The position numbers and the translations under genes were made by a program. From Wenyingzhuangia sp. (GTDB lineage Bacteria > Bacteroidota > Bacteroidia > Flavobacteriales > Flavobacteriaceae), in NCBI GenBank assembly GCA_020628175.1, contig JAHDFK010000009.1, positions 1 to 62,900 on the forward strand: a stretch of DNA of 62,900 bases, in the 5' to 3' direction. Below, piece by piece: positions 38,296-62,900 of the stretch. The notes beneath the pieces are model-generated. The model had not been told where the DNA came from and ran no database searches. It was given only the letters and a program-made list of their open reading frames with translations. Position 1 is the first letter of the stretch. The number at the start of each line of letters is the position of its first letter.

Positions 38296-38692
38296 TTGTA
38301 TAATTGTTTTTATATTTATCAATATTATTTAGTGAATGACCGCCTTTAAACCAATATTTTACATCTAAAATCCATAAAATAAAATTTAAAAACCAACCTA
38401 AAAAAGAAAGTGTTTTATCTCTTTGGTTTTTGCCTAATGCACTAGAGATAGTTTCGTTTTTTTCTCCGAAATTGTAACCATTTTTATCTTTTAAAATAGT
38501 ATTCCATAAAGTTCTAAAATGATAATTTGCAAATACGTCAACCTCTAATGCTTGACCTATAAAATAATTGCTAAATGATTTTTTAAAACCTTGTTTTTTT
38601 ATGTTTTTAAATATCCATACAGGAGCGTTTAAAAACACTCCTATTATGGGCATTAAAATGTAAGCTATTACTGATAAAAAATAATTGATCAT
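38276..38692 (-). CDS. Prophage membrane protein
   Basis: A 138-residue protein with an N-terminal hydrophobic stretch (YFLSVIAYILMPIIGVFLNAPVWIF) and a second one near the C-terminus (LSFLGWFLNFILWILDVKYWF). Two membrane segments flank a hydrophilic middle. Likely a virion membrane or host-membrane protein; no family recognised. Confidence 0.65.
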   Translation of the reverse strand: MINYFLSVIAYILMPIIGVFLNAPVWIFKNIKKQGFKKSFSNYFIGQALEVDVFANYHFRTLWNTILKDKNGYNFGEKNETISSALGKNQRDKTLSFLGWFLNFILWILDVKYWFKGGHSLNNIDKYKNNYTNGFYTR

Positions 38693-38695
38693 TTT

Positions 38696-39265: not shown

Positions 39266-39272
39266 TTAGATT

Positions 39273-40898: not shown

Positions 40899-41116
40899 TA
40901 TGTTAAAATTTTATAAATAGTCTTAAATGTATCAATGTCAATTTTACCCATTAAAAAAGATATCAATAGTAATAATGTCAAAAAAAAAGTACCTAAATAA
41001 ACAATATTATTTGATGGTTTTTTTATATCTCTAAAATCTTTTATTGCTTTGGCTATGCTTGATAGACCACTAGCGTCTTTTATACCTTTAAGGATGGGGA
41101 TTAATATATTTTTCAT
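40898..41116 (-). CDS. Small prophage membrane protein
   Basis: A 72-residue protein starting MKNILIPILKGIKDASGLSSIAKAI with one strong membrane helix (NIVYLGTFFLTLLLLISFLMG). A longer open frame exists upstream but overlaps another small gene in a different frame. The stop overlaps the spike-like gene start by one base. Confidence 0.65.
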   Translation of the reverse strand: MKNILIPILKGIKDASGLSSIAKAIKDFRDIKKPSNNIVYLGTFFLTLLLLISFLMGKIDIDTFKTIYKILT

Positions 41117-41261
41117 TTTTGTAATTTTTAATTTTAAGTAATATATATACAAGGGTTGCAATTCCGACAGATGCCGAAATGATTGGCTCAAAGAACTCGG
41201 CAACCCCTTGTATATATCCAAATAATCCAATAATTGCATTAATTAATGTTTGTCTACTCAT
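41088..41261 (-). CDS. Small membrane protein next to lysozyme, candidate holin
   Basis: A 57-residue protein (MSRQTLINAIIGLFGYIQGVAEF...) starting 3 bases after the lysozyme stop. It has a long hydrophobic stretch with a possible break (INAIIGLFGYIQG; ISASVGIATLVYILL) and a lysine-rich tail, the general look of small holins. It overlaps the next membrane gene by 29 bases in another frame. The holin role is inferred from size and position. Confidence 0.6.
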   Translation of the reverse strand: MSRQTLINAIIGLFGYIQGVAEFFEPIISASVGIATLVYILLKIKNYKNEKYINPHP

Positions 41262-41264
41262 TAA

Positions 41265-41825
41265 TTATGAGATTGATTTGATAGAGATAATTGCAAGGAT
41301 GAGCCACAGCAAGGACATACTATTTTTTTTTTGCTCCGTTGATGTATCAACAGAGATATTTAAGTTGCTTAAAAACAAGTCTCGCTCTTGTTCTCGCCTT
41401 TTTAATAAGCCTTGATTTACTTTACCGTTAGCCTTTTTAAAATCAGTAAAACGTGCGGCAGCTTCTTTAAAACGATGGTTTTTTAAGTGATTATATAAAG
41501 TTGAGCCTTTACCAAAAGAATTACCGTAGTTTTTAGTAAAAATTGATCCAGCACCAACATTATACACTAAAGAGACTAATGCGTCAAATTGATTTTGGGT
41601 TAAGGGAATACCTTTGTTTACAACGTATTTATTTACTGATGTTTCAAACTCGTGTAAATCTTCTTTTAAATAACGTTCTGCAACTTCTTTTGTAATTTGT
41701 TGGTTTGGTCTAACTCCTTTTGTATGACCATAACCAATGGCATAAGCTCCAGCGTCAGGGTATGAAAATAATCTTAACCCCTCAAAACGTTTGATTAGTT
41801 CTATTCCTTTTTGTGATGTTTTCAT
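41265..41825 (-). CDS. GH24 lysozyme with a C-terminal membrane helix
   Basis: A 186-residue T4-type muramidase cutting peptidoglycan. The catalytic Glu is residue 15 (IKRFEGLRL) and the Asp residue 24; the stretch GAYAIGYGHT has Ala where most GH24 enzymes have Thr, so the usual E-D-T triad is incomplete. The C-terminal LLWLILAIISI helix would anchor it in a membrane, as in virion-borne entry lysins. It overlaps the upstream membrane gene by 4 bases. Confidence 0.85.
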   Translation of the reverse strand: MKTSQKGIELIKRFEGLRLFSYPDAGAYAIGYGHTKGVRPNQQITKEVAERYLKEDLHEFETSVNKYVVNKGIPLTQNQFDALVSLVYNVGAGSIFTKNYGNSFGKGSTLYNHLKNHRFKEAAARFTDFKKANGKVNQGLLKRREQERDLFLSNLNISVDTSTEQKKNSMSLLWLILAIISIKSIS

Positions 41826-42136
41826 ATTGATTCAATTTTTGAATTAGTATTTAATTGCTCCATTTTTAACTTAAACTTGATGTAGTTTAAATTTGAATAA
41901 AGTTTTAACTCTTGTGTGAGCTTGTTTTTTTTATTATCGTGTACCATTGATGTTATACTATGTGCAACAAAACATATAGTTGCAAATGGTAATAAGGCAA
42001 CTATAAAAAGCAATATAAATGGCAACAATAACACTATAATTATAACAGCTAAAACAACCATCCAAGTAGGATAAGTTGTTTTTGATTTTGGCTTTTTTTT
42101 AGGTTCTAAAGGTTCGTAGGGTGTTTGTTCTGTCAT
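41822..42136 (-). CDS. Prophage membrane protein
   Basis: A 104-residue protein with a proline/lysine-rich N-terminus (TPYEPLEPKKKPKSKTTYP), two adjacent hydrophobic segments at about 24-65, and a hydrophilic tail. Likely sits in the host or virion membrane. It is coupled to the lysozyme gene by a 4-base overlap. Confidence 0.65.
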   Translation of the reverse strand: MTEQTPYEPLEPKKKPKSKTTYPTWMVVLAVIIIVLLLPFILLFIVALLPFATICFVAHSITSMVHDNKKNKLTQELKLYSNLNYIKFKLKMEQLNTNSKIESI

Positions 42137-42162
42137 TTGGTTATATTTGGGTAAAAAAAAAT

Positions 42163-42642
42163 ATGAGTTTATTTAAAAACGCTATAAAAGCAGTAAAAAA
42201 GGAAATTATTAAAAACAGAAATATTAAAAACGGTCAAAGTCTTGAAGATGATTTTGAATTTTATTTAAATGAAAACAAAAACATTTCAATTGTTGAAAAA
42301 ACACATTCTTTTAAAGAAAATGGTTTTATTGAATCAAATCTAAATCCTGACTTTAAAGTAAGACTAAAAGATTGTGACTTTGTTTTTTGGGTAGAATGTA
42401 AATTCAGATCATCAATTGACGAAAAAAATAGAATTGATTTAAAAAATGTAAAGCAATACAACCGTTATAAAAAATTAAAAGAACCTGTTTTTTATTTAAT
42501 AGACATTCATAATGAATTTACAGCCTTAATAAATATGGATATGTTATACCCTAAAATGTTTGTTTCATATTTGAAAAAATTTGAATTTGAATGGGATGAA
42601 AAATTGACAAAAGAAAAATTATTAAGTAACAGTAAATCATAA
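42163..42642 (+). CDS. PD-(D/E)XK nuclease-fold protein in the prophage
   Basis: A 159-residue protein read opposite to its neighbours. It contains NPDFKVRLKDCDFVFWVECKFRSS, giving a D-(15)-ExK spacing, and KQYNRYKKLKEPVFYLID after it, the layout of small restriction-type or resolvase nucleases. It could process viral DNA or act against competitors. I start at MSLFKNAIK; an upstream in-frame ATG would overlap the divergent gene. The stop overlaps the convergent gene's stop by 6 bases. Confidence 0.65.
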   Translation: MSLFKNAIKAVKKEIIKNRNIKNGQSLEDDFEFYLNENKNISIVEKTHSFKENGFIESNLNPDFKVRLKDCDFVFWVECKFRSSIDEKNRIDLKNVKQYNRYKKLKEPVFYLIDIHNEFTALINMDMLYPKMFVSYLKKFEFEWDEKLTKEKLLSNSKS

Positions 42643-43062
42643 CGAAAGATTAAATCTTTTGATTAAAGGTTTTAATTCAGTTTTTGACATTTCGTTAAAA
42701 AGCCAAAAAACTAAATCCTTAGGTTGACCAAAATAAACGCCTTCAGTACCTGTAAAAGGTTCATATTTAACTAAACCAAATTGATTATAAATTAAATTAA
42801 AATCAGATTTATTTAAACCGTTAAAAGTATCTATTATTGATTGTTCGTCAGTTCCAATACCCCCCATAAAACCAACAAGTCTAGAAGCTTTTCTTTTTGC
42901 TTCTGAAATGGTAATAGTGGGAGAAGTAACTACCTTTGTATTAGGATTTTCAGACTTTGTGTTTGTGTTTGATTTTAATTTATTAATAAAAAAACTCAAA
43001 ATCATCAAAACAAAAGCAACTTGAAAAGCTGGACTGTTAAATATTTTAAAAAGTTTATTCAT
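42637..43062 (-). CDS. Prophage membrane protein with an annexin-like GTDE motif
   Basis: A 141-residue protein: an N-terminal membrane helix (AFQVAFVLMILSFFI), a polar linker, then a soluble domain containing GFMGGIGTDEQSIIDTFNGLNKSDFNLIYNQFG. The GxGTDE-x(n) helix pattern resembles one annexin repeat, where it binds calcium and membrane. Only one repeat is present. It overlaps the preceding membrane gene by 8 bases and is probably a virion membrane protein. Confidence 0.6.
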   Translation of the reverse strand: MNKLFKIFNSPAFQVAFVLMILSFFINKLKSNTNTKSENPNTKVVTSPTITISEAKRKASRLVGFMGGIGTDEQSIIDTFNGLNKSDFNLIYNQFGLVKYEPFTGTEGVYFGQPKDLVFWLFNEMSKTELKPLIKRFNLSL

Positions 43063-43297
43063 CTTTTATATTTTTATCAAATTCACGCTGAATCTGTTCC
43101 TTTGTTTTTTTTACTTCGTTTGTTGTTTGTTTTAACAAATCATCAATTCCGTTTTCAACGTCATTAATTATAGTATCTAAAGGATTTTCAACATCTTTAA
43201 TTACTGGTTTTTGTAATGGTTTAGATTCCTTTTTTGACTTAAATAAAGTCAAGAAGAAAAAAGATAAAATAATTAATAAGAATGTTTTAAAATCCAT
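43055..43297 (-). CDS. Small prophage membrane protein
   Basis: An 80-residue protein with an N-terminal membrane helix (FLLIILSFFFLTLF) followed by a charged helical, probably coiled-coil tail. It lies between the basic proteins and the GTDE protein; the close spacing suggests co-expression with the virion genes. Confidence 0.65.
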   Translation of the reverse strand: MDFKTFLLIILSFFFLTLFKSKKESKPLQKPVIKDVENPLDTIINDVENGIDDLLKQTTNEVKKTKEQIQREFDKNIKDE

Positions 43298-43360
43298 AAT
43301 TTAAAATTTAAAACCCCCTCATATAGAGAGGGTTAACCAAATATTAGCAACAAAAAAAAC

Positions 43361-43612
43361 TTAACGTCTTCGGAAACTCTTTTTTACACGTCTACGACGT
43401 TTTAATCTAACTTTTTTAACAGGCTTATATCTTACAATAGGCTTATTAATAGGCATTAGTTTATAACCTCTTTTTTTAGCTTTTAAGGCAGATTTTTTTG
43501 TATAGTGTTTACTCACTATTCTTTTGCCTAAAACTAATTTGTATCTGTATTTTCTTTTAGCTTTAGAACGTCCGTTAGACATTCCTAAAGCTGTCATAAT
43601 AGCATCTAACAT
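43361..43612 (-). CDS. Very basic prophage protein, probable DNA-binding virion protein
   Basis: An 83-residue protein in which about 40 per cent of residues are Lys or Arg, especially the tail KPVKKVRLKRRRRVKKSFRRR (ends at the stop). It looks like a nucleoprotein that neutralises packaged DNA. It overlaps the upstream basic gene by one base (TAATG-type junction). Confidence 0.7.
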   Translation of the reverse strand: MLDAIMTALGMSNGRSKAKRKYRYKLVLGKRIVSKHYTKKSALKAKKRGYKLMPINKPIVRYKPVKKVRLKRRRRVKKSFRRR

Positions 43613-44307
43613 TATTTAAATAGTTTTTTACCAAACAATAAAAGAGCTAAACCGCCTAATATCATTGTAGTATTTTTATTATTCTTTTTTTCTGCATAAG
43701 CTTCATTTGTTAAAACACCCTGCCCTGCTCCTAATGTTGTGTTTCGTCTAGTAGAATTAACTTTTGAAAAACTAGAATTTAAACTGTTTTTAGTGGCGTT
43801 TTTAGAAGCTATAAAACGCTGATAAGATAAAAGTTGTTTAGAGGCAAAAGAAGCGTTATTTTGGGCTTTTTTTGTGTTATATTTAACATCTTTTCTAGTG
43901 CGTGAATAAATACGCTTTTTATTAGGAGGATAAATACTCATTCTAGTACCTCTGTTAGGTGTAGACGCCCTAGTATATCCTGTTAAACGCTTATTTCTTT
44001 GACTTTTTGATATAAAGCTGGAAATTTGTTTATTTACGTCGGTTTTAGGAAAAACTTTTTTAATTTTATTAAAAAATCTTGGTAACCTAGATGATCGTTT
44101 AGAAATTAGTTTACCGGCTATACCGCCTAGTTTTGTGCCAATACCCGGTAAAATAAAACTACCGACAACAGGAGATGCAAAACGCAAAGTTTTACGTGCG
44201 TTTTTTCTTACAAACTTAGATGCCTTTTTAACACCTCTACGAAATTTTTTCGCAGTTTTTTTTACTGAACGTCTTAAACGTCTAAATTTTCTTTTAAACC
44301 AACCCAT
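43612..44307 (-). CDS. Basic virion-type protein with membrane segments
   Basis: A 231-residue protein. The first 60 residues are extremely rich in Arg and Lys (WFKRKFRRLRRSVKKTAKKF...), followed by a glycine-rich hydrophobic segment (VVGSFILPGIGTKLGGIAGKL). The C-terminus has a membrane helix (TTMILGGLALLLFGKKLF). A protein that binds DNA at one end and membrane at the other would link genome and internal membrane. It sits two genes downstream of the capsid candidate. Confidence 0.65.
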   Translation of the reverse strand: MGWFKRKFRRLRRSVKKTAKKFRRGVKKASKFVRKNARKTLRFASPVVGSFILPGIGTKLGGIAGKLISKRSSRLPRFFNKIKKVFPKTDVNKQISSFISKSQRNKRLTGYTRASTPNRGTRMSIYPPNKKRIYSRTRKDVKYNTKKAQNNASFASKQLLSYQRFIASKNATKNSLNSSFSKVNSTRRNTTLGAGQGVLTNEAYAEKKNNKNTTMILGGLALLLFGKKLFK

Positions 44308-44322
44308 AAGGTAACAATATTT

Positions 44323-44592
44323 TTAATCGTCTAGCTCGAAATCTTCGTCCGAACGTGAGGACATTAAATTTTTAATTTCTTTCACACCCCAAAAATATAC
44401 AAGGGGCATAAGCAACTGAACAAATACGTTCTCTTTAAAAAACTTGGCATATAATTGCTCAAATTTTGATTCAGATTTAGAAGTACAACGGTCTTGCCAA
44501 GCTTCTGCATCCACTCGTAACTGGTCTAATGCGACGGTCTCCATTAGTCCGAAATCTTTGTTTATTTTTAATAAAACATCTACAGGTTTCAT
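44323..44592 (-). CDS. Small prophage protein with a hydrophobic segment
   Basis: An 89-residue protein with a helical N-terminal part, a moderately hydrophobic stretch (VFVQLLMPLVYFWGV) and an acidic tail (SDEDFELDD). No family recognised. It lies between the capsid candidate and the basic proteins, so a minor virion protein is plausible. Confidence 0.6.
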   Translation of the reverse strand: MKPVDVLLKINKDFGLMETVALDQLRVDAEAWQDRCTSKSESKFEQLYAKFFKENVFVQLLMPLVYFWGVKEIKNLMSSRSDEDFELDD

Positions 44593-44651
44593 ATCTATTA
44601 AATTTGGTTATTTTTAAAGTAAACCCCTCTTTTTAAGAGAGGTTTATATGT

Positions 44652-45476
44652 TTATATTAAATCGTAATGAACAGATATTAATTTAGCATCTTCATTAGCG
44701 GGCTTATCGAGTTTAGCTCTTAAATGCGCCTTATCTAAGTGATTGTCAGATAAGTAAAGAACTAGATTTTGCACGTCAGATTCAGGATTCACATCTAACA
44801 TATTCATATTTTGAGCTATCAACGCATTGTGCGATACGGTTTTATCAAAAGGGATATCTTCATCCGTTTGCTCGTCAAAAACATTACCTCTTAAATTAAA
44901 AGTTTCAATTTTTGAGTTTGTTGACTGATCGTATGGTTTTTTATAGTCAGTTACTAAAACTAACTTTAACATATTTTCATCAAACTGCTCATCAATGTTA
45001 CTATTGCCAGCACCAACATTTTGAGTAATGATTTTTGGTAAACCAAAAGTAGCATCTTGTGTTGTTGGTATTGTTTCAACAGTAATTGAAGAATTTACAG
45101 TACTTAATCCGTCAAAAGCTTCTTTTGATGGATTCATTGAAACCTCGAATTCGTCTCCAACATTCAATTCTAACACACCACTAAAGTCAATTAACATTTT
45201 ATAACCACTTAACAACGGTTTTTTTGCGATTTGTAAACTTGGTGTTTGTGCGTATAATCCTATTAAAAGATCATCTAAATAACCTTGATGAATGAACTCC
45301 TTATCGTCTCCTTTTCTTTTTACAGAAATGTCTATACCAATTTCGTTAAGGTTTTTAATTGGGGCAATAGTTTCGCCGTCAACCTTTAATGCGTCGACGT
45401 CGAGTAAAATACCGCTTAACTTCTCATCCTTAACGGTCATAGTGGTATGCTTACCGAATCTAAATTCCTTTTGCAT
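44652..45476 (-). CDS. Candidate major capsid protein
   Basis: A 274-residue soluble, beta-rich protein without signal peptide or enzymatic motif. The N-terminal region (FRFGKHTTMTVKDEKLSGILLDVDALKVDG) and the body alternate short strands and loops, and its length fits the double jelly-roll capsid proteins of PM2-like and FLiP-like viruses (about 270-310 residues). It is surrounded by small membrane and basic proteins. The capsid call rests on size, composition and context, not on a sequence motif. Confidence 0.55.
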   Translation of the reverse strand: MQKEFRFGKHTTMTVKDEKLSGILLDVDALKVDGETIAPIKNLNEIGIDISVKRKGDDKEFIHQGYLDDLLIGLYAQTPSLQIAKKPLLSGYKMLIDFSGVLELNVGDEFEVSMNPSKEAFDGLSTVNSSITVETIPTTQDATFGLPKIITQNVGAGNSNIDEQFDENMLKLVLVTDYKKPYDQSTNSKIETFNLRGNVFDEQTDEDIPFDKTVSHNALIAQNMNMLDVNPESDVQNLVLYLSDNHLDKAHLRAKLDKPANEDAKLISVHYDLI

Positions 45477-45479
45477 AAA

Positions 45480-45635
45480 TTAACTATTTTGTGATTTATC
45501 AAATTCCTCTATCTTTTCGCCGATAACAGGGATTTTTTTAATTACTTCCATGATCTTCGTTTTGAAAACCATTGCAGCTAAAGAAATTGCAACAATTGCT
45601 AAAATTCCTTTCATTTTTTTATTATTTCTCATCAT
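45480..45635 (-). CDS. Small membrane protein upstream of the capsid candidate
   Basis: A 51-residue protein (MMRNNKKMKGILAIVAISLAAMVFKTKI...) with a basic start, one membrane helix at about 10-24 and a charged tail. Its stop codon ends 4 bases before the capsid-candidate ATG. Tiny membrane proteins next to the capsid gene are typical of viruses with an internal lipid layer. It is too short for ordinary ORF length limits. Confidence 0.65.
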   Translation of the reverse strand: MMRNNKKMKGILAIVAISLAAMVFKTKIMEVIKKIPVIGEKIEEFDKSQNS

Positions 45636-45684
45636 AAAATGATTTGTTTATCAACATAGAATGACAATATAAATACGAAAAACA

Positions 45685-45775
45685 AAAAAACCGCTAAATT
45701 GGTTTTTTAGCGGTTAAATTGGTCCAAATTTATTGATATAACAGCGTATAACATACATTAAAAACGTATGTTATA
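45685..45775. promoter_or_regulatory. Two strong hairpins before the virion operon
   Basis: The first stem is AACCGCTAAA with TTTAGCGGTT (about 45689-45715); the second is TATAACATAC (45747-45756) with GTATGTTATA (45766-45775). They lie between the 110-residue gene and the virion operon. The first resembles a terminator, and the second could be an operator or a processing site. Confidence 0.5.
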
Positions 45776-45796
45776 AAGTGTTACCCACAATAAAAA

Positions 45797-46129
45797 TTAC
45801 TTAAGTACAGTTACACTTTTAACTTGTTCATTTGTAAGTAAGTCATACAAATGCAAAAATACCGCAGGCGGTGTGTCAATACCATCAGGGTTTTGGGGTT
45901 TAGGTATGTGTATAAATATATCCCCTTCATCGCTCGCATTACCTATTGGTAAGTCAAATAAGTATCCGATATCAGGATAATCTGAACCCAAATCATTCCA
46001 TATAATTTCACACCTGCTACCTGCTTCGGTTTCTTCACCTTTTAGTTTATCAAAAAGTCCATCAAGTATATCAGCATCTAACATTTTTTGCCTTTGTACT
46101 AATAATTCATTTAAAAATTCGTATTCCAT
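45797..46129 (-). CDS. Prophage protein of unknown function
   Basis: A 110-residue acidic protein; the C-terminal half (GNASDEGDIFIHIPKPQNPDGIDTPPAVFLHLYDLLTNEQVKSVTVLK) looks beta-rich. No family recognised. It is separated from its neighbours on both sides by structured non-coding DNA, so it may be expressed on its own. Confidence 0.6.
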   Translation of the reverse strand: MEYEFLNELLVQRQKMLDADILDGLFDKLKGEETEAGSRCEIIWNDLGSDYPDIGYLFDLPIGNASDEGDIFIHIPKPQNPDGIDTPPAVFLHLYDLLTNEQVKSVTVLK

Positions 46130-46244
46130 TGTCGTAATTTTAAAAGATGGGTAACACTGTATAAAGTGAAAAGCCCATCAAGGTTTCTGTTTTAATAGCC
46201 AAAGTTCAGGTGTTGGCTTCTCACCTTATACTCGTCCGTTATAT
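46130..46244. other. Structured intergenic DNA in the prophage
   Basis: Contains GATGGG pairing with CCCATC across about 27 bases, AGCCA pairing with TGGCT, and GGTG pairing with CACC. Several nested stems suggest a folded RNA or single-stranded DNA signal rather than plain spacer. Confidence 0.4.
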
Positions 46245-46466
46245 TTAATTTCGCAATTCAGATATTAAAACATCTTTTGCGTTTTCTAATGCTTTATTAC
46301 GTTTAATTAGTTTTTTATTATGTAAAAGAATTTCTTGATGTGTTACAATTATTTCAGATAATAACTTTGCATAATTTGGTTGATTGTATAAATCTACCAA
46401 TTCATTTAGTTGGTCTGTTAAAGGGATTAACACCCTTTTTTTTTCTATTATATTTAGTTTAGCCAA
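46245..46466 (-). CDS. Small helical prophage protein
   Basis: A 73-residue protein, nearly all helix, with a likely coiled coil (LLHNKKLIKRNKALENAKDVLISEL). Its start overlaps the end of the replication gene by 8 bases, suggesting translational coupling and perhaps a replication-control role. Confidence 0.6.
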   Translation of the reverse strand: MAKLNIIEKKRVLIPLTDQLNELVDLYNQPNYAKLLSEIIVTHQEILLHNKKLIKRNKALENAKDVLISELRN

Positions 46467-48489
46467 TTCTATATAAATTTTGATGTGATAAAAAAGATTC
46501 TCTATATAAGTATGATGTTTGTGATTCGTAATAATACGTAAAATCGTCGCAATGATTTATAGGTTTATCAACCTTTTGAGATTGTCGAGATAATCCAAAT
46601 ATCTCTAAATCCTTTTTATAGCGTGAAAAGGTTGAAGATGATAAATTCATATTGTAACGAATTTCATCCAAAGATTCTCCGCTTAAAATACGTTGATGTA
46701 ACATTGATAAAATAGGTACGTTAATTTTTTTCAAATGTTTTTCACGTAATTGTTTTTGCGTTAATAATTCTGTAGCTTTTTTAATTGTTGATCCGTTATT
46801 TTTATAACGTGGGTTACCCTCTATATCAGTAATTCTATACTCATTTAAATTATTGTATTTTATTACGTTTTCATCTGCTTGATCGTTATACTCTTTTAAA
46901 CGTTGTACAAAATCATCCTCATTTTCTAATTCTTTTACTTGAAAATGTTGGAACATATCGTAAAAATCAGAAAAAAGATGGCTTAAAAAATCTTTTGTTA
47001 AAGGTGCTACGTCTGAAATGTACAAACTATAACAATGCTTATATAAAGGATTGTTTTGAGTGATATTGTACTCTCCTGTTTTTGGGTCGTAATCTGTAAT
47101 ACCTTTACCGTAAGATTGTTTTTGAAAATTATGCAAGATAGAACTATCTGAAAAAGTTAAACAAATTGATCTTTGCAACCATTTTTTACAATCATTGTAA
47201 ATGTCTCGCTCATATTTTAAAATCTTACGTTTAGATTTTGAAGCGTTACGAGAATCTTCTATGCTCCTTACTTTTTTAAATATTTTTTCAAATTCTAAAA
47301 AATACATACATTCACGTCTAAAATGTTTTGTTTTAAATTTATACGCAAATTGCTTAGGTCTATAGGTTACTTCATAACGCAATATTTTATCTGCTTCTGA
47401 TTGCAAAAATTTAACATCAAAAAGTTGGTTATCTCTATAATGTCTATTCATTTTTAAAAAAGCTTTTTTATCTAAAGATTTAGGTAATTTTATTTTTTCG
47501 TATTTATCTTTTATAAAAGCTTTTTCAATTAAGTATTTTTGTTGCTCTTTAAATGTTTTAAAATGTGTAGGTGTTACATTTTTATTACGTTTTAATATTT
47601 TTTCAAAATATTCAGAATTGAGTTTTATATGCTTTTTTAAGTCGTTTTGTTGGTATTCAGTTCCTTTGTGATATATTTTAAAATAGCTACCACTTTTTGA
47701 CGTAAAAGCTAAAGAAGTATCATAAGGCTTATTACTAGCGTTAGATTTTGAATTGTATTTATTATTGATTTTTTTCTGCATTTTTAGATACCTTAAAGCT
47801 TCGCTTTTACTATCAAAATATTGATTAAAACAAAAATCAATCCTCAACAACTCTACATAATGCATATTTATAGATTTATTCAAACTAAATAAAGTTTCTA
47901 TATCACTAAAAAACTTCTTTGTAATTTTTATAAAACGATCATACAAAATATTGTTTTGATGTTCCCAAGATTTAACAAGTAATCTATTTTGAAAAACTGA
48001 ACAGTGTTTTGAATAAGATTGCGGAACAAATTGAACTATATTATGTTTGTATAAATATTTTGGAATTGAGAATTCAAAATCTATAAAGCCAGCTTCTGGA
48101 TTAACACTAAAATTAATATCAGATTCAGAACTAGATAGACGAAAAGTACCAATAGTGCGCATATTACGTTCAATAGTTTCTTTTTCATTTCTAACTCTTA
48201 AGATTTGGGTATTTAAAAAATGTCCTTTTAAATCGCCTTTTGCATAATTGAAATGTAAAAAATCATCAGAATCAATATTTTCATGCGTTTCTTGTGTTTT
48301 ATTGATGATACTTTTACTTTCAAAATATTTACCCTTATACTCCATTAACTTAGTAAATAAATCAAAATGTGACGGACATGTATATTCTTGATCGTCTAAA
48401 GGATTAGGTATTTTTTTCTCTTTGTCTATGTATTTTGTTTTTGTATCAAAAACTGCATGTAATCTATATCGTACTGTATCAATTGCCAT
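46459..48489 (-). CDS. Replication initiation protein (phage gene II/X type)
   Basis: A 676-residue protein with three features of the Phage_CRI/gene II family of rolling-circle initiators: LLRIDFCFNQYF, GSYFKIYHKGTEY, and KILRYEVTYRPKQF. The C-terminus adds a helix-turn-helix-like segment (ESLDEIRYNMNLSSSTFSRYKKDLEIFG). It should nick one strand at the origin to start replication. I start at MAIDTVRYRLHAVFD; a longer frame adds 23 hydrophobic residues. At this length it has extra domains compared with filamentous-phage gpII (about 410 residues). Confidence 0.75.
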   Translation of the reverse strand: MAIDTVRYRLHAVFDTKTKYIDKEKKIPNPLDDQEYTCPSHFDLFTKLMEYKGKYFESKSIINKTQETHENIDSDDFLHFNYAKGDLKGHFLNTQILRVRNEKETIERNMRTIGTFRLSSSESDINFSVNPEAGFIDFEFSIPKYLYKHNIVQFVPQSYSKHCSVFQNRLLVKSWEHQNNILYDRFIKITKKFFSDIETLFSLNKSINMHYVELLRIDFCFNQYFDSKSEALRYLKMQKKINNKYNSKSNASNKPYDTSLAFTSKSGSYFKIYHKGTEYQQNDLKKHIKLNSEYFEKILKRNKNVTPTHFKTFKEQQKYLIEKAFIKDKYEKIKLPKSLDKKAFLKMNRHYRDNQLFDVKFLQSEADKILRYEVTYRPKQFAYKFKTKHFRRECMYFLEFEKIFKKVRSIEDSRNASKSKRKILKYERDIYNDCKKWLQRSICLTFSDSSILHNFQKQSYGKGITDYDPKTGEYNITQNNPLYKHCYSLYISDVAPLTKDFLSHLFSDFYDMFQHFQVKELENEDDFVQRLKEYNDQADENVIKYNNLNEYRITDIEGNPRYKNNGSTIKKATELLTQKQLREKHLKKINVPILSMLHQRILSGESLDEIRYNMNLSSSTFSRYKKDLEIFGLSRQSQKVDKPINHCDDFTYYYESQTSYLYRESFLSHQNLYRIG

Positions 48490-48679
48490 AAGAGAGAATA
48501 TATGAGTTATATAAATTGATAGCAGTAAGTAGAGTGTCTGAAACTTCAAGAGTTTCAAAATCTACATACATTTTTTTATGTAATCTAGGTATTTGTAACT
48601 GACAATCTTCTAATGATAAACATGTTAAAGATTGAATTGTTGCCCACATATTTTGTTTATGATATTGTAAAATACTCAT
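48479..48679 (-). CDS. Small prophage protein upstream of Rep
   Basis: A 66-residue protein without a recognised motif. It overlaps the Rep start by 11 bases and the preceding gene's end by 23 bases, which supports it being real and co-translated in the replication operon. Confidence 0.5.
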   Translation of the reverse strand: MSILQYHKQNMWATIQSLTCLSLEDCQLQIPRLHKKMYVDFETLEVSDTLLTAINLYNSYILSYGN

Positions 48680-49028
48680 GTCTTAATTTTTTAGGTGTAT
48701 AATTAGGTAAATATGGATAAGATTCATTTTTAAAATAAAGTATGTCAATTTCAGATTGTGGATATATTGAATAATTTTTAAGAATCATCAAATAAATATC
48801 TTTATTACAATTCTTATCAAAAAAACAGATGTGTGGTTCAATATCTTTTAAAAGAATTGTTTTTTTATCTATTAAATTAATTGTAGCGTGCTTACATTTA
48901 AATTGGTCTTCTAAAATAAAAAGAGTATTAAGTGAAAAATAAGGACTACTACGACGCACTATAATAAAATATTGTTGATAATGCTTTGGCAATATAGATT
49001 CGGTTATGTTTTTGGTTATTTTAGGCAT
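48657..49028 (-). CDS. Prophage protein of unknown function
   Basis: A 123-residue basic protein, alternating strands and helices, no motif recognised. It overlaps both neighbours and belongs to the early (replication) run at the right end of the element. Confidence 0.55.
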   Translation of the reverse strand: MPKITKNITESILPKHYQQYFIIVRRSSPYFSLNTLFILEDQFKCKHATINLIDKKTILLKDIEPHICFFDKNCNKDIYLMILKNYSIYPQSEIDILYFKNESYPYLPNYTPKKLRHEYFTIS

Positions 49029-49587
49029 TTAAGAGATTATTTGATTTTAAATGAACAACTTTGAACCTGATATTTCGATAATTTATTTCGTTGTTGTTAC
49101 ATTTTAATTCGTTTCTATAATTTTTTAAAAGCAATTCCAATTGTTTTGAAATTGAATTTGTTTGTGCCAATAAATTAGAATGTGAGTTCTTAGATTTTGA
49201 AAATTTTTTTAAATTATCGTTAATATCAAAAAGATTATCAAAAAGTATATATACTTTTTCAAATGATATAGATTGGTTACCTTTTGTATAAGTATAAAAA
49301 GTGAAATCAATTTGTTTATTGAATTGATGTAAACTATTAACTATCTTACTAGATATAGTAGAATTTAACTGTAAATAATAGTCTCCGTATAATGACATTA
49401 AACGAATTTGTAAAGACCTTAATGTGTTAATAGTATCAAAAATCAATTTTTTCAATAAACGGACTGAAGATTCAGCGTGTTTTTTGTTTTTAAAAAAAAC
49501 TCTTTGTCTATAAGGTAAAAGAATATAATACTTACCTCTTACATCATTTTGTAAACACTTAATAATTTCAATTTTAAAACTTTTCAT
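49021..49587 (-). CDS. First gene of the prophage replication run, unknown function
   Basis: A 188-residue basic, helix-rich protein with a possible coiled coil at about 120-170. No family recognised. As the first gene after the right attachment site it may be a regulator or replication helper, by position only. Confidence 0.55.
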   Translation of the reverse strand: MKSFKIEIIKCLQNDVRGKYYILLPYRQRVFFKNKKHAESSVRLLKKLIFDTINTLRSLQIRLMSLYGDYYLQLNSTISSKIVNSLHQFNKQIDFTFYTYTKGNQSISFEKVYILFDNLFDINDNLKKFSKSKNSHSNLLAQTNSISKQLELLLKNYRNELKCNNNEINYRNIRFKVVHLKSNNLLNA

Positions 49588-49670
49588 TTTCGATATTTTT
49601 TTTTAAGAAATCGACGAAAATATAAAAGCGGAAATATTAAGGGATTTTTTTCTGTTTTTTTTTACAATAT

Positions 49671-57667: not shown

Positions 57668-58816
57668 ATGAATTTACCCATCATTTTGTTAAAGCCTTCG
57701 ATACATAGAAATAAAGAGGTTGTATTTTTAGAATTTGTATATAACAGTGCGCTTGTTTCTAAAATTAAACAGCTAGGAATGCGTGTTTTGTGGAGCAACC
57801 AAAACAAGATGTGGTATATAGAAAAAATCAACTTTGAATTGTCTCTTTTTTGTGATGAACTTAAAGAGTTGGCTATTGTTGATACTAGTATTTATAATAC
57901 AACAGTAGGTGTTTTGGTAGAAAAAGAAACTATAAAAAATAAGCTAAGTAAAGCGCAGCGTAATCAACTAAATAACTTTTATAAATATTTAAGAGGCAAA
58001 CGTTTTAGTACTAGTACGCTTAAAACGTATACGCATTTGGTAGCCGAATTTGTAGTGTATTTAAATGAAGATGCTATTAGCTTACAAGCTATTGAAAAAT
58101 ATGCAGATGATGTGATTGTAAAAAAACGATTGTCTGTGAGTACGCATAGACAATTTGTAAGCGCAGTAAAACACTATTTAACGTTTATAAATGCGGGTTT
58201 TGATATTGATTTTACTACGGTAGCACCCAAAAAAGATAGAAAATTACCAAATATATTGTCTAAACAAGAGGTGATTGAACTAATACGTGTTACAAAGAAT
58301 TTAAAACATAGAGTTTGTATAGGGCTTATTTATTCGTCGGGTTTACGAATTAGTGAACTTATCAACTTAAAAATTTCGGATATAGATTTTCAAAGAATGG
58401 TTTTGAAAGTGAATTTTGGGAAAGGAAGAAAAGATAGGTACGTGCCTATTGCTCAAGTATTGTTACCAATGCTTAAAAATTACTTAGAAACTTACAGACC
58501 GCAGCACTATTTTGTGGAAGGGCATGTTTTAGGAGATACATATTCTGCAGCGTCTATCCGAAAATTTTTAAAATATAATTGTTACAAGGCTAATATTTAT
58601 AAAAAAGTAACCCCTCATACCCTACGCCATAGTTATGCAACACATTTGTTAGAAAGTGGTACGGATATAAGATATATACAAGAACTTTTGGGGCATAGTA
58701 GACCTGAAACAACGATGTTGTACACAAAAGTACAAAGTGAAGATTTAAGAAAAATTACAAACCCATTAGATTTGATTGTAAAACAAATGAACGTGCAGAA
58801 AAAAGTTACGAATTAA
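57668..58816 (+). CDS. Tyrosine recombinase, probable cassette integrase (XerD-like, not classical IntI)
   Basis: A 382-residue site-specific recombinase. An N-terminal extension (1-80, with LWSNQNKMWYIEK) precedes a SAM-like core-binding domain (about 95-180) and the catalytic domain. Catalytic residues: R227 (SSGLRISE), K255 (GKGRKDRYVP), H317/R320 (PHTLRHS), H343 (LLGHSRPE) and Y352 (MLYTKV). Only about 55 residues separate the KDRYVP and PHTLRHS boxes, so the extra segment that marks integron integrases is missing. The end NPLDLI resembles IntI. I start at ATG 57668 rather than an upstream TTG. Directly downstream lies a cassette array. Confidence 0.85.
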   Translation: MNLPIILLKPSIHRNKEVVFLEFVYNSALVSKIKQLGMRVLWSNQNKMWYIEKINFELSLFCDELKELAIVDTSIYNTTVGVLVEKETIKNKLSKAQRNQLNNFYKYLRGKRFSTSTLKTYTHLVAEFVVYLNEDAISLQAIEKYADDVIVKKRLSVSTHRQFVSAVKHYLTFINAGFDIDFTTVAPKKDRKLPNILSKQEVIELIRVTKNLKHRVCIGLIYSSGLRISELINLKISDIDFQRMVLKVNFGKGRKDRYVPIAQVLLPMLKNYLETYRPQHYFVEGHVLGDTYSAASIRKFLKYNCYKANIYKKVTPHTLRHSYATHLLESGTDIRYIQELLGHSRPETTMLYTKVQSEDLRKITNPLDLIVKQMNVQKKVTN

Positions 58817-58830
58817 TTTTAAAAAACGAA

Positions 58831-58903
58831 CCAAAAAGGTAACGATAACCTGTTTTTTACACTATTTTTCGTTACATTTGGTTTTTATATAACCCGTTGG
58901 CAT
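58831..58903 (+). other. First recombination site, attI-like
   Basis: Inverted arms CCAAAAAGGTAACGA (58831-58845) and TCGTTACATTTGG (58869-58881) are followed by TATAACCCG|TTGGCA, with the crossover G at 58896. It is shorter than the later sites and lacks their inner conserved motifs, as expected for the fixed site beside the integrase gene. Confidence 0.6.
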
Positions 58904-58967
58904 TAATTACAAAGACTGTAATATTCTTCTTAATTTATTGTCTTATAACAATTGAATCAATTAAAAA

Positions 58968-59720
58968 ATGAAAAAAACACTTTTATCATTATTGATAATA
59001 CTAATTTTTATCTCCTGTAAAAATGATATTACAGAAAAGAGAAGAATATTAATTATCGTATCAAACACCGAGGATATGGGAGACGCAGAAAAACACTTTG
59101 CAGGTAACAATCTTTGGGAAGTAGCACCTCCATATCATGTTTTCGTCTCTCACGGATACAAAGTTGATTTTGTTTCGCCAACTGGGGGAAAAGTCCCTTT
59201 CTCAATGGATCCTGTTGGAATCAGTAGTTATACTATAAAATATGAGAATTTTAATGGTAATGTTGAAAAATCATTAACACCTGACCAAGTAGATTATAAA
59301 AATTATAAAGCTGTTTTTATTGGCGGTGGATATGGACCATTGTTTGATGTTGCTAATAATAAAAAATTATTATCAATTATAGCTAACGTTTACGAAAATG
59401 ATGGAATAGTAGGAGGTTGTGGACATGGACCTGGTGCTTTTGCAAATGTCAAACTTAGTAATGGTGATTATATGGTTAAAGATAAAAAAGTGACAGGTTT
59501 CCCAAAATCGACTGAAATTACTAAAAGTTGGGCTAAAGAGGGAACTTTATTACCTATAATGCTAGAAGACCAATTAAGAAATAATGGAGGCATATTTCAA
59601 ACTAAAAGTGATTTGAATGATAAACACGATATAGTAATTGATAAGAGGATTGTGACGACTATGTTTCTTCCCTCTTCTGCAATTGTCGCCAAAGAAATGA
59701 TTAAACAAATAGAAAACTAA
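58968..59720 (+). CDS. Cassette 1: DJ-1/PfpI-like lipoprotein
   Basis: A 250-residue lipoprotein (signal peptide ends FISC, Cys at about 17) with a DJ-1/PfpI (type 1 glutamine amidotransferase-like) fold: ILIIVSNTEDMGD, YKVDFVSPTGGKVPFSMDPV, YKAVFIGGGYGPLFDV and GIVGGCGHGPGAF. In active relatives the Cys directly precedes HGP; here Gly is in that position and Cys one residue earlier, so activity may be changed or lost. It is the sole gene of the first cassette. Confidence 0.8.
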   Translation: MKKTLLSLLIILIFISCKNDITEKRRILIIVSNTEDMGDAEKHFAGNNLWEVAPPYHVFVSHGYKVDFVSPTGGKVPFSMDPVGISSYTIKYENFNGNVEKSLTPDQVDYKNYKAVFIGGGYGPLFDVANNKKLLSIIANVYENDGIVGGCGHGPGAFANVKLSNGDYMVKDKKVTGFPKSTEITKSWAKEGTLLPIMLEDQLRNNGGIFQTKSDLNDKHDIVIDKRIVTTMFLPSSAIVAKEMIKQIEN

Positions 59721-59852
59721 TGCCAACAACGCATAAAATCAATTTGGGCTTGGTTCTCTCCTATTTGTTATTTACTTTTAACAAAATCATTGTTATGGCT
59801 GACAGGGCGTTGCTCTTTTAACCCAAACTGATTTTTATGCAAACCGTTATGC
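59721..59852 (+). repeat. attC-like site 1
   Basis: Left end TGCCAAC, stem arms at 59731-59749 and 59821-59840 that pair with one bulged base, and crossover CCG|TT at 59846/59847. Inside lie the conserved ACTTTTAAC (59774-59782) and TGGCTGA (59796-59802). Total length is about 128 bases. Confidence 0.75.
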
Positions 59853-59859
59853 ACAACCT

Positions 59860-60525
59860 ATGAAAAAGCTTATAATATTGATTGTTTTATTTTGTGTAAA
59901 ACCTTCATTGTTGAAACTTCACGGACAAAATAATATAAACAACTCTGAAAGTCCCAAATTGTATTTTAGAACTGAAATATTAGCCGATACAATAAACACT
60001 TTTGGAGTAAAAAAAGATTCTTTATTCTACAGAAACAGACAAAAGTTTGCTATGCTTAGTAATAAATGGTTTTCTAAGCAATTAAATGGTTTGGGAGAAC
60101 CTATTATATCTGAAAAATATAAAAATGAAACATATCGTTTTACTTGGCTAAGAACATTTCATAACCCTATATCAGTCCGAATTGAAAAAAGAATTGACAA
60201 ATATTTCTTAACTCTAAAAAGAACCAATGGAGCTGGAGGATATGAGCCAGGTAAATTAATTAACAACGAAGAGTTTCAGATTTCTGACGAAGAATGGAAT
60301 AATATTAAAATGAAAATTTATAATATAAATTTCTGGAAAATTCCAACAATTGAAATGAGTAATTTTATCGTAGCAGACGGTGCAATATGGATACTTGAAG
60401 CTAATAAAGAAAAATCATACAAAATGGTCTACCGAAATAGTGCTAGTAAATCAGAAGTAAAAGAAATCTGTAAATATCTTTTAAAATTGAGTAAACTAAA
60501 GATTCGGAAGAAAAAAATATACTAA
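59860..60525 (+). CDS. Cassette 2: exported protein of unknown function
   Basis: A 221-residue protein with a signal peptide (MKKLIILIVLFCVKPSLLKLHGQ). The middle (FRTEILADTINTFGVKKDSLFYRNRQKFAMLSNKWFSKQLNGLGEPI; YRFTWLRTFHNPISVRI) matches no family I know. The ATG is 13 bases after the cassette boundary, so it may be read from upstream. Confidence 0.75.
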   Translation: MKKLIILIVLFCVKPSLLKLHGQNNINNSESPKLYFRTEILADTINTFGVKKDSLFYRNRQKFAMLSNKWFSKQLNGLGEPIISEKYKNETYRFTWLRTFHNPISVRIEKRIDKYFLTLKRTNGAGGYEPGKLINNEEFQISDEEWNNIKMKIYNINFWKIPTIEMSNFIVADGAIWILEANKEKSYKMVYRNSASKSEVKEICKYLLKLSKLKIRKKKIY

Positions 60526-60532
60526 AAAGATA

Positions 60533-60664
60533 TGCATAACAACTAATAAGCTAAATTTTGGGGTTATTTCAAGCTTGAAGTTTTGTACTTTTAAACAAGC
60601 TTTGTCTTGGCTGAAAAACCTCTGCCCTATCACCCCAAAACTTAGCTTATTAAACCCGTTGTAG
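60533..60664 (+). repeat. attC-like site 2
   Basis: Left end TGCATAAC; arms AATAAGCTAAATTTTGGGG (60545-60563) and CCCCAAAACTTAGCTTATT (60633-60651) pair at 18 of 19 positions; crossover CCCG|TT at 60658/60659. Inner motifs ACTTTTAA (60587-60594) and TGGCTGA (60608-60614). Length about 128 bases. Confidence 0.75.
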
Positions 60665-60676
60665 GTAATTAGAAAA

Positions 60677-60918
60677 ATGCAGAAATTCGATCTAATATTT
60701 TTAGGGTCAGACAAAGTTTTAGTTAGTCAAAAACAATATTATAACTAGAAAGAAATACAAAATGAATTTGATGATTATATGGCAAACGTAGGTTTTGATT
60801 CATTTGATGAAATTAAAGATTACATACAGTTTGACTATAAATTAACTGAAGAAAAGCATTTAAAGAATCGAGAAAAATATCTGAATCTAATTCTGATTAT
60901 GTAGAAATTGAATTATGA
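60677..60918 (+). pseudogene. Cassette 3: broken small gene before the Imm50-like gene
   Basis: From ATG 60677 the frame reads MQKFDLIFLGSDKVLVSQKQYYN, then an in-frame TAG at 60746-60748. The same frame continues with protein-like sequence (KEIQNEFDDYMANVGFDSFDEIKDYIQFDYKLTEEKHLK). A shift near 60860 to the next frame gives ESRKISESNSDYVEIEL and a TGA overlapping the next ATG by 4 bases. The preserved overlap suggests it was once a coupled partner gene, now dead through one stop and one frameshift. Confidence 0.5.
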
Positions 60919-61367
60919 CAAATGAAATTGAAAATATATTCGCATCATTTCACGATGGTGGAATAACCGAATGGAAAGGAGATTTAAAAAAATTGACATT
61001 AAAAATCGAATGTCAATATCTCGGACAGGAATTTCAAGATGATTTTGAAAATTTTTATCTGCTTATCCATAATATAGAACATATTGAGTTAGAGCCTTGG
61101 ATGAATCCAATAACTCTCGAAAAAATTAATAAAACTGAATTAAATGAGATTTTCAAAGCTGAATTAGAAATTGGATATGCTGAAACTGAAAATGGAGTCG
61201 TAAAAATAAGTTGTAATCAGCACGATATAAGTTTTGATTTTTGTGGTGGGAACTTGTTTATAAAAGCAGAAAGTATTGAGATTCAAAATCACTTAAAACA
61301 AAAAATATCACCAACTGATTTATACAAAGCAAGTGATAATTATTGGAATAATTTAAGTAAAAAATAA
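60915..61367 (+). CDS. Cassette 3: Imm50-like small protein
   Basis: A 150-residue acidic protein. The start MTNEIENIFASFHDGGITEWKGDLKKLTLKIECQYL resembles immunity-protein-50-type or related small cytoplasmic families with an SFHDG motif. The rest is beta-rich. An immunity role would fit the cassette setting but is unproven. It overlaps the dead gene before it by 4 bases. Confidence 0.6.
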   Translation: MTNEIENIFASFHDGGITEWKGDLKKLTLKIECQYLGQEFQDDFENFYLLIHNIEHIELEPWMNPITLEKINKTELNEIFKAELEIGYAETENGVVKISCNQHDISFDFCGGNLFIKAESIEIQNHLKQKISPTDLYKASDNYWNNLSKK

Positions 61368-61368
61368 C

Positions 61369-61505
61369 TACCTACAACACTGTATAAATTCAATTTGGGC
61401 TTTGCTACTTTCTCAAAGTTTGTTACTTTTAACTAAGTTGGGTTTTGGCTGAAACGAATTGGCTTTGTAACCCAAACTGAAATATATACGAACCCGTTAC
61501 CCACA
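61369..61505 (+). repeat. attC-like site 3
   Basis: Left end TACCTACAAC; arms at 61381-61400 and 61470-61489 pair imperfectly; crossover CCCG|TT at 61496/61497. Inner motifs ACTTTTAAC (61425-61433) and TGGCTGA (61446-61452). The spacing between them is within a base of sites 1 and 2. Confidence 0.75.
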
Positions 61506-61526
61506 AGCAAACACCAAACGAACTGA

Positions 61527-62798
61527 ATGAGTGAATTTGATAATATTACAATTGAGGAACTTAGACGAGAAATCCGAAAATTCAACAATGACCAGAATGT
61601 TAGTAAACTAGAAAACTATTACCGCTCAAAATCACTTCCCGAAATAATTGGAGCAAGTAGAAAAGAACTTGCCCACAGTGGATTTATAGCTTGGATTCTA
61701 AATAATTCTGAAAGTCATTTGTTAGGTGATTTTGCGATTAGAAAACTGCTTGAACTGTTAGTTATTTACAGTAAAGACAAACAATTGAGTCAACATAAGG
61801 AATTTTATGATTCAATTATCATTTCGGACTTTGAATTAGACAATATTTATACTGAAACTGAAAGGAGTATAAAAAATGTTGGAAGGCTTGATATTTATAT
61901 CGAGACAGACATAAAATATTTTGATAAAGAAAAAAAGTTAAGGCTTATTGTTGAAAATAAAGTTGGAACCAAGGAACACAGTGACCAAACAACAAAATAT
62001 TTCGATTATTACGAAAGCTTAAAAGGAGAAAATGACATCAATCTTTATGTGTTTTTGACACCTATTTCTAGTCTTGAATTAATGGACTTAGAATTTCCGG
62101 AATGTAGTTGTGATGAATATATTCAAATCAATTATCAATCAGTAGTCGATTTTATACTCGAACCCGCACTCAATAGAAATATAACGGATAAAACACAATT
62201 TATTATCAAAGAATACCTTCAATCCTTAAGTCAACCGACATTAGACGAAGATGAAGAAACATATAAACAAGGCTTAATTATGGCACTAGGAAGTGACGAA
62301 AGAAATTTATTGACCAAATTTTGGGATAAAAATCAAAAACTAATTTTAGCTACTCTTTACGCAATCAGTTCAGACCCAGAACAAGAAAAAGATACTAGAG
62401 ATAGTGCTAACCAAGCATTAGATAATCTATCGAAAAGTAACAAAGACCGAAGTTTATGCTCAATAAAGTTCAATGGAATTTTAGAAGTTGAAAAAATCAG
62501 AAAATCTGATATTGGATATTCAACAGTCAAAATATTAGAAAGACACGGTTTAATAAATGAAGATTCAATTGAATTTTTAAAATCTGACAGAACAGCAAAT
62601 CACAATTTATTGAAAACATTAAATGAAGTAACGGCAACAGAGGAAAAATATGGTAGGTATCGAGTTAGTAAAGAGCCTGAATTAATATATGATGAAAATG
62701 AATACTACATTGTAAGAAATTGGGGAGTAGGAAACATAGGACAATTTATTGAAAAAATGTCAACGGAATTTAAAGGATTGGAGTATGAAATCCACTAG
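61527..62798 (+). CDS. Cassette 4: PD-(D/E)XK nuclease superfamily protein
   Basis: A 423-residue protein of the PDDEXK_4 type. The N-terminal block ENYYRSKSLPEIIGASRKELAHSGFIAWILNNSESHLLGDFAIRKLL is characteristic. The nuclease core has GRLDIYIETD followed by LRLIVENKVGTKEHSDQTTKYFDYY (D...ExK with the trailing Q). The C-terminal 200 residues are unassigned. Such genes are common in defence-rich and cassette settings, so an anti-phage role is plausible but not shown. Confidence 0.8.
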   Translation: MSEFDNITIEELRREIRKFNNDQNVSKLENYYRSKSLPEIIGASRKELAHSGFIAWILNNSESHLLGDFAIRKLLELLVIYSKDKQLSQHKEFYDSIIISDFELDNIYTETERSIKNVGRLDIYIETDIKYFDKEKKLRLIVENKVGTKEHSDQTTKYFDYYESLKGENDINLYVFLTPISSLELMDLEFPECSCDEYIQINYQSVVDFILEPALNRNITDKTQFIIKEYLQSLSQPTLDEDEETYKQGLIMALGSDERNLLTKFWDKNQKLILATLYAISSDPEQEKDTRDSANQALDNLSKSNKDRSLCSIKFNGILEVEKIRKSDIGYSTVKILERHGLINEDSIEFLKSDRTANHNLLKTLNEVTATEEKYGRYRVSKEPELIYDENEYYIVRNWGVGNIGQFIEKMSTEFKGLEYEIH

Positions 62799-62810
62799 TA
62801 AAAAAGCCAG

Positions 62811-62900
62811 TGGGTAACACGGTGTATAAAACATAGCTAATAAAAGCTAAACCGAAAGGTTTGTGTATATTTAGAAAGTCCGCCAAATTTTTAATTTGGC
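62811..62900 (+). repeat. attC-like site 4, cut by the window end
   Basis: Begins with TGGGTAAC, the exact complement of the cassette 4 start (TTACCCA), then GGTGTATAAAA. The inner part differs from sites 1-3 and contains the hairpin GCCAAATTTTTAATTTGGC at the very end. The right half lies beyond the window. Confidence 0.6.

Follow-up and report, generated by a model that had tools for sequence, protein, structure and literature searches.

Integrons, including the sedentary chromosomal ones, consist of the integrase IntI, an attI site beside it and a tandem array of cassettes, mostly with one gene each and on the same strand, that carry attC sites. Each cassette of an integron has a start and an end that are complementary to each other, and every site in the array is thus made of halves that belong to two different cassettes. 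The attC site has an unpaired central spacer, extrahelical bases, a variable terminal structure and 9–11 complementary nucleotides (nt), and is used as its bottom strand (PMC2727003; here and below, statements on the literature refer to excerpts of the cited articles). The I2 helix of the integrase is described as required for cassette capture, as occurring in no other protein and as missing from Xer proteins (PMC7790495); in an integron-like subgroup the insert is not fully conserved, yet it is essential for function (PMC8138268). We analysed a stretch of 62,900 nt from Wenyingzhuangia sp. (contig JAHDFK010000009.1, positions 1 to 62,900, hereafter the window), the last ~5 kb of which hold a recombinase open reading frame (ORF), a predicted attI site and four cassettes on the same strand. 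With a probability of roughly 0.8, the window contains the start of a chromosomal integron-like array whose cassettes are moved at G|TT via bottom-strand hairpins by a recombinase that lacks I2 and is not IntI.

Bacteroidota have been listed among the integron-bearing phyla (PMC8618304, PMC9668308) and intI genes of Bacteroidetes/Chlorobi have been recorded (PMC2426708), with one complete integron reported for Bacteroidetes, in Salinibacter (PMC9024848). The Salinibacter ruber integron and the In0 elements of Bacteroidetes place integron components in the same phylum as the window, but they were found with integron-integrase and attC models, and the excerpted text of that article does not report a system of the present kind. 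No description of such a system was found in the open-access literature (titles and abstract beginnings; subscription papers and preprints were not covered).

Anatomy of the array

The original prediction had named a XerD-like recombinase with an integron-like array, in which a tyrosine recombinase is followed by an attI-like site and at least four cassettes in the same orientation. All of these are present at 57668–62900 on the plus strand, and the label holds. The features are as follows (aa, amino acids).

57668..58816, plus strand: tyrosine recombinase, 382 aa (PF00589, 8.4e-39), no I2 insert, ~90 extra N-terminal aa
58817..58905, plus strand: predicted attI, insertion point G|TT at 58896; position and consensus similar in relatives
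58896..59845, plus strand: cassette 1, DJ-1/PfpI-like protein (ORF 58968–59720; PF01965, 9.7e-9) and 3' site
59716..59857, plus strand: attC-like site 1, R' AAC at 59725, next GTT at 59846; 93.3 bits
59846..60657, plus strand: cassette 2, 221-aa protein (ORF 59860–60525), no family above cut-off, and its own site
60529..60669, plus strand: attC-like site 2, AAC at 60538, next GTT at 60658; 88.3 bits, 24-nt arms 92% complementary
60658..61495, plus strand: cassette 3, 150-aa protein (ORF 60915–61367), no recognised family, and its own site
61367..61507, plus strand: attC-like site 3, AAC at 61376, next GTT at 61496; 99.2 bits
61496..62900, plus strand: cassette 4, PD-(D/E)XK_4 nuclease-family protein (ORF 61527–62798; PF14281, 4.7e-21); cut off on the right by the window end
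62807..62900, plus strand: attC-like site 4, beginning only, cut on the 3' side by the window end; E 0.032, in an unfiltered scan E 4.1

Unit boundaries of the form ...CC|GTT lie at 58896, 59846, 60658 and 61496, all on the plus strand, and the units are separated by imperfect palindromes. The latter had been predicted with a length of about 128 bases; the palindromes stand, and the length was corrected to about 121 nt, counting from the AAC on the left up to the GTT on the right. Among the predicted cassette products, the DJ-1/PfpI and PD-(D/E)XK assignments were recovered, whereas an Imm50-like protein encoded by ORF 60915–61367 was rejected, because its product matched neither Pfam nor NCBIfam. 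The one Rfam match, of manA-II to site 2 on the minus strand, reached 29.1 bits, well short of the gathering score of 100, and was taken to be an artefact of the palindrome.

When the entire window was scanned without filters with a covariance model, R1, which was built from 26 sites, the three complete sites scored 88–99 bits (E <= 1.7e-18). The three belong to these training sites, so that their own scores prove little, and independent support comes from matches of the model elsewhere and from the match between the boundaries of each cassette. The start of cassette 1 matches the reverse complement of its own end over 10 nt, and the positions after the GTT match the own end at 6 of 7 in cassette 2 and at 7 of 7 in cassette 3; for cassette 4 the match, again as reverse complement, is GTTACCCAC to GTGGGTAAC. 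Matches elsewhere were sought in the best 80 of 589 confirmed recombinase places in genome contigs (alignment A1). The window and these 80 related loci, 1.15 Mb scanned on both strands, contained 169 matches to R1 at E <= 1; the window accounted for 4, and the other 165 were spread over 44 of the loci. Every one of the 169 was on the strand of the recombinase, and 2 of the 165 matches outside the window were located upstream of it.

The predicted attI of the window has inverted arms, AACCAAAAAGGTAACG and CGTTACATTTGGTT, and a promoter-like motif, TAnnTTTG, which has the sequence of a Bacteroidota promoter element. A survey of attI in relatives covered 42 of 81 sources. In 28 of the 42 loci a 9–10 nt match to the end of the first cassette was found 58–207 nt past the recombinase match; the 14 loci with no clear attI comprise 5 without a site in the set used and 9 with an unclear or distant match. 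The attI consensus is TATCC.G ... ATATAAC.A|GTT, and most cassette sites instead have ..CC or ..AC|GTT, so that the exchange should occur at or to the right of the base before GTT. Of 30 attI regions, 11 had the TAnnTTTG motif no more than 40 nt from the GTT, as compared to a rate of 0.026 per 40 nt in the same loci.

The recombinase

The recombinase contains the PF00589 domain and a SAM-like core-binding domain, preceded by ~90 N-terminal residues that fit no Pfam family clearly and were weakly matched by DUF5710 in 8 of 24 relatives. Six residues that we take to be the catalytic residues of a tyrosine recombinase (R227, K252, H317, R320, H343 and Y352) are invariant across the 24 relatives. 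Among the 120 of 7859 matches that were listed, relatives are 43–68% identical, and many are named as Flavobacteriaceae. The top NCBIfam match was the archaeal-type XerA with 213 bits (cut-off 220), and the integron integrase family TIGR02249 gave 192.4 bits in two stretches, which is below its cut-off of 265. Likewise, the closest solved structures by sequence were the archaeal XerA proteins 4a8e and 5hxy, followed by IntI4 (2a3v) in two pieces, and the order was both XerA structures and then 2a3v by fold, with TM-scores of 0.38–0.49 on a model with a predicted TM-score (pTM) of 0.49.

In 53 of the 54 array recombinases (the other was not read), 57–60 residues separate the lysine motif from the HxLRH motif; the spacing was 62–66 in seven of nine Xer proteins (2 not read) and 100 in all 13 IntI proteins. 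By this measure the array recombinases are without an I2 insert. A maximum-likelihood tree was inferred from 56 rows, consisting of the window, a random draw of 33 of the 53 other array recombinases, 13 IntI and 9 Xer proteins. It recovered three separate groups, with support values of 90/87 for the array recombinases and 100/100 each for IntI and Xer. In this tree, from which XerA was absent, the recombinase is thus placed outside the clades of IntI and of the host and E. coli Xer proteins; a sister relation to IntI is not claimed. The array enzyme shares the catalytic core with XerA, XerC and XerD and differs from them by its extra N-terminal residues and by its position next to a cassette array.

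In the window the recombinase is co-directional with the cassettes, unlike in classical integrons, where the orientation is divergent. The divergent orientation was observed in four other loci (L130, L132, L133 and L134), in which relatives of ~285 aa that lack both I2 and the N-terminal domain are oriented away from the R1 sites. These shorter recombinases may represent a second architecture of the same system. A search with the recombinase DNA within the genus (2 genomes) gave a match in its own genome only. On a plasmid of Chryseobacterium oryzae, a recombinase with 37% identity precedes a VOC-family gene; the plasmid has no significant R1 site (best E 0.48).

Cassette ends, mobility and hairpins

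In 100 cassettes, defined by neighbouring pairs among the best 150 of the 169 matches, the start and the end of the same cassette matched at 6.19 of the 7 positions after GTT. The two halves of one site matched at 2.74 of 7 (n = 140), and shuffled pairs at 2.55, with a maximum of 2.99 in 500. In an enlarged set (150 + 134 + 50 matches, with two duplicate loci and odd-strand rows dropped) the values were 6.16 for 223 cassettes, 192 of which matched at 6 or 7 positions, and 2.85 for halves of the same site (n = 289). The 192 well-matched cassettes have a median length of 734 bp, and their largest ORF was in forward orientation in 148 and in reverse in 12, with no ORF reaching 60 aa in 32. The match between a cassette's own start and end is the hallmark of integron cassettes, and its length of ~9–10 nt here is similar to the 9–11 nt given for integrons (PMC2727003).

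Movement of cassettes was examined in two cases. In a Polaribacter locus (L053) the cassette adjoining attI occurs a second time four sites further along, and the two copies are 100% identical over 800 bp from the GTT onwards. The second case is a 967-bp cation-efflux cassette (L119:8818–9784; PF01545), which was matched in 306 of 397 Flavobacteriaceae genomes at E <= 0.001, many of these matches covering the site only. Of 24 other loci aligned with their flanks, nine, each from another species, carry the cassette in full or almost in full, at 95.9–99.7% identity and in differing flanks. Relative to the GTT edge, the left breaks in the nine are at 0, 0, -3, -4, -11, -11, -26, -39 and -45; on the right, seven loci break at +4 to +6 and the other two at +21 and -14. 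One cassette thus occurs in different neighbourhoods, and a fixed gene order across related genomes, which had been named as the finding that would speak against the original prediction, was not observed. The alignments indicate movement of cassettes with breakpoints on or close to G|TT, without fixing one base of the GTT. Six loci (L154, L159, L161 and L166–L168) have copies of the cation-efflux cassette that keep the left GTT edge and end before the site; these are probably fixed or site-swapped cassettes.

The sites share with attC the R'/R'' and L'/L'' arms, an unpaired spacer, a variable terminal part and the AAC/GTT cores, and their mismatches are A.C columns rather than plain bulges. 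Since the 26 training sites had been chosen for inverted repeats, covariation among them would be circular. We therefore used sites chosen by the start/end match alone, without regard to the stem; 227 were found (215 distinct), as compared to 33–42 expected from three shuffles. The stem score of the 215 sites was 19.54, against 11.00 with the halves permuted (maximum 11.59 in 100). The stem pairs covary strongly in the 155 sites of regular length, with, for example, Watson-Crick pairs in 139 of 151 sites at one pair (52 expected) and G-T in none (12 expected). Over the stem minus two mismatch columns, top-strand G-T was counted 26 times against 126 expected, and A-C 79 times against 163; this avoidance of G-T on the top strand points to a hairpin that acts as DNA. 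The two mismatch columns have A.C on the top strand in 145 of 152 and 100 of 150 sites, and hence T.G on the bottom strand. Structure rather than sequence is kept in the attC-like hairpin. When sites in their excised form were folded as DNA, the bottom strand was the more stable in 148 and the top strand in 5 of 155 (means -26.65 and -23.36); shuffled sites also lean to the bottom strand, 107 to 47, so that composition explains part of the asymmetry. Further controls gave 55 to 91 for windows from cassette bodies and 144 to 10 for the stem only.

Under the proposed mechanism, the recombinase would excise cassettes and insert them at G|TT, with the single-stranded cassette site, as a predicted bottom-strand DNA hairpin, serving as the substrate. 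New cassettes would enter at attI, and a promoter in attI would drive the first cassettes. An enzyme without the I2 helix would need other means to read the hairpin and to stop the exchange of the second strand. Its N-terminal domain is a candidate replacement for I2, but the shared catalytic core is the likelier one, because the shorter relatives without the N-terminal domain also adjoin arrays.

The same enzyme could instead act on double-stranded sites, as an ordinary Xer recombinase does, with the palindrome reflecting symmetric binding and not a hairpin. Such a mode would suit a recombinase without the insert that is said to confer single-strand recombination (PMC7790495), and symmetric binding would also yield Watson-Crick covariation. 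It accounts poorly for stems whose sequence varies freely between cassettes while the pairing is kept, for R'/R'' arms that are mostly unmatched within one site and match within one cassette only, and for the A.C columns and the strand asymmetry described above. We consider double-strand recombination unlikely, although it is the best of the alternatives to bottom-strand hairpins.

Distribution in Bacteroidota and the identity of the enzyme

When model R1 was run against 296 Bacteroidota genomes (as grouped by the genome collection), sites were found in 134 of them (E <= 0.001, with only 10 candidates scored in each). At E <= 0.01, Algibacter mikhailovii has 119 sites, Gillisia limnaea 60, A. 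miyuki 43, Leeuwenhoekiella blandensis 35 and Cyclobacterium plantarum 21. The recombinase family, shorter relatives included, was identified in 84 of the 296 genomes with a profile of A1 (E <= 1e-68); sites were present in 70 of these 84 and in 64 of the 212 others. The same arrangement of recombinase and sites recurs across Bacteroidota and is likely an overlooked kind of integron. In Cyclobacterium (L077, 10001–11089), an array adjoins a recombinase frame that contains stops, and this array may have lost its own enzyme.

True IntI above the TIGR02249 cut-off is also found in 84 of the 296 genomes, which far exceeds the one complete Bacteroidetes integron reported (PMC9024848). The cassettes could accordingly be ordinary attC cassettes on which a true IntI acts in trans, with the adjoining recombinase being incidental. 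The sites were not positively associated with IntI (30 of 84 genomes with IntI, 104 of 212 without), and they were present in 10 of 59 genomes with IntI only as compared to 50 of 59 with the recombinase only (20 of 25 with both). Moreover, no R1 site was found at 25 Bacteroidota IntI loci (flanks of ~1.5 kb or less), and Algibacter mikhailovii, with its 119 sites, gave no match to TIGR02249 at E <= 1e-40. In 50 kb of E. coli DNA that includes a class 1 integron, no match to model R1 was significant (best E 1.5, without filters); one of the weak, non-significant matches (E 2.0) falls on one of the integron's cassette junctions and could be read in favour of IntI.

The Polaribacter phage P12002L provides a second point in favour of IntI. 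Its cluster of attC sites lacking integron-integrases (CALIN) was described with two predicted attC sites, one of which was recombined by IntI1, while the top strand gave no recombinant (PMC9892861). In our scan the stretch 30000–40957 of this phage contains ten R1 matches (E <= 1.3e-4) on a single strand; nearly all genes, the methyltransferases included, oppose the strand of the sites, and no integrase is annotated in that stretch. The excerpted description draws no link to a Bacteroidota system. The published assay and the R1 matches together suggest that the R1 type of site can serve as attC, provided that the site tested with IntI1 is one of them. Overall, movement by IntI in trans appears distinctly improbable.

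Even less probable is that the housekeeping XerC and XerD move the cassettes, as they do for Xer-exploiting elements. To our knowledge, XerCD is near universal in bacteria, and all five carrier genomes examined have XerC/XerD-type genes of their own. The array recombinase, however, has an adjoining attI and forms a separate clade, and the sites track its family across genomes. Finally, dispersed repetitive extragenic palindromic (REP)-like elements between genes, which would be immobile, share with the sites the many copies of similar sequence, but the single strand, the position of nearly all sites downstream of the recombinase, the matched cassette ends and the near-identical cassettes in new surroundings leave this explanation a negligible chance, in agreement with the original prediction. 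On this evidence, the anatomy of the array and the comparative breakpoints point to an integron and the enzyme is not IntI; the comparisons strongly suggest that the neighbouring recombinase is the catalyst.

Besides the compositional share of the strand asymmetry, several observations weigh against an array moved at G|TT by this recombinase family. As many as 36 of the 80 related loci are without an R1 match at E <= 1. In the four nearest loci, L001–L004, which have no match, the contig stops 202–579 bp past the recombinase gene; a contig end lies within 3 kb downstream of the recombinase in 34 of the first 50 loci and upstream in 2, and such breaks are as expected because the arrays are repeats. 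Some left breaks of the cation-efflux cassette reach back up to 45 nt in the nine loci, and 12 of the 15 remaining copies (88–99% identical) end 47–143 nt before the right edge, with the left edge mostly kept. The counted genomes are related, so that the p value for the association of sites and recombinase, 4.9e-17, is too small. Sites were not found in 14 of the 84 genomes with the recombinase family, and were found in 54 of 153 with neither recombinase nor IntI, both at the strict threshold and with the 10 candidates scored per genome. The start/end match in the Polaribacter phage is mixed, with 7, 6, 5, 5, 5, 3, 3, 2 and 2 of 7 positions.

Beyond the window, we lean towards the view, with somewhat better than even odds, that Bacteroidota have a second kind of integron that is phylum-wide and often of superintegron size, in which an I2-less enzyme of Xer type acts on single-stranded attC hairpins by a solution that is independent of I2 or older. 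An I2-less enzyme with a cassette system this large would make the origin of single-strand recombination directly testable: recombination of hairpins may need no I2, may have arisen twice, or the present system may retain the state before I2. Such a system could also explain why a single complete integron was reported for Bacteroidetes (PMC9024848) despite the sites in 134 of 296 genomes of the phylum. It would constitute a large and barely noticed mobile gene pool in Bacteroidota, which extends to the one phage searched, P12002L.

The content of the cassettes is diverse. A set of 113 cassette proteins (111 of 144 distinct proteins, with at most five per locus, and two more from the window) matched 63 Pfam families at E <= 1e-5. 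Repeated families were few among the matches listed (beta-lactamase fold 3, AAA/OLD 2, cation efflux 2, esterase 2), and two of the proteins resemble the defence ATPases Old/GajA.

Of 198 genomes that share their phylum with a metagenome-assembled genome titled Spirochaetes, 9 (G443, G305 and seven others) also contained R1 sites, possibly owing to transfer between phyla or to misplaced contigs. Within the window, one further unit was identified upstream of the array:

45735..46249, plus strand: stray cassette-like unit in a phage-like stretch, with a site, a 110-aa minus-strand ORF (45797–46129) and a site at 46144–46249

In the unfiltered model scan the right site of this unit had E 4.9e-7 and the left site E 0.27; its start and end match at 5 of 7 positions, the first 8 nt being identical, and the matching stretch is GTTACCCA. 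The surrounding block (~36400–49600), which is mostly on the minus strand, encodes a phage lysozyme (PF00959), a 699-aa ORF and other scanned proteins that were not recognised, and looks like an integrated phage or plasmid-like element.

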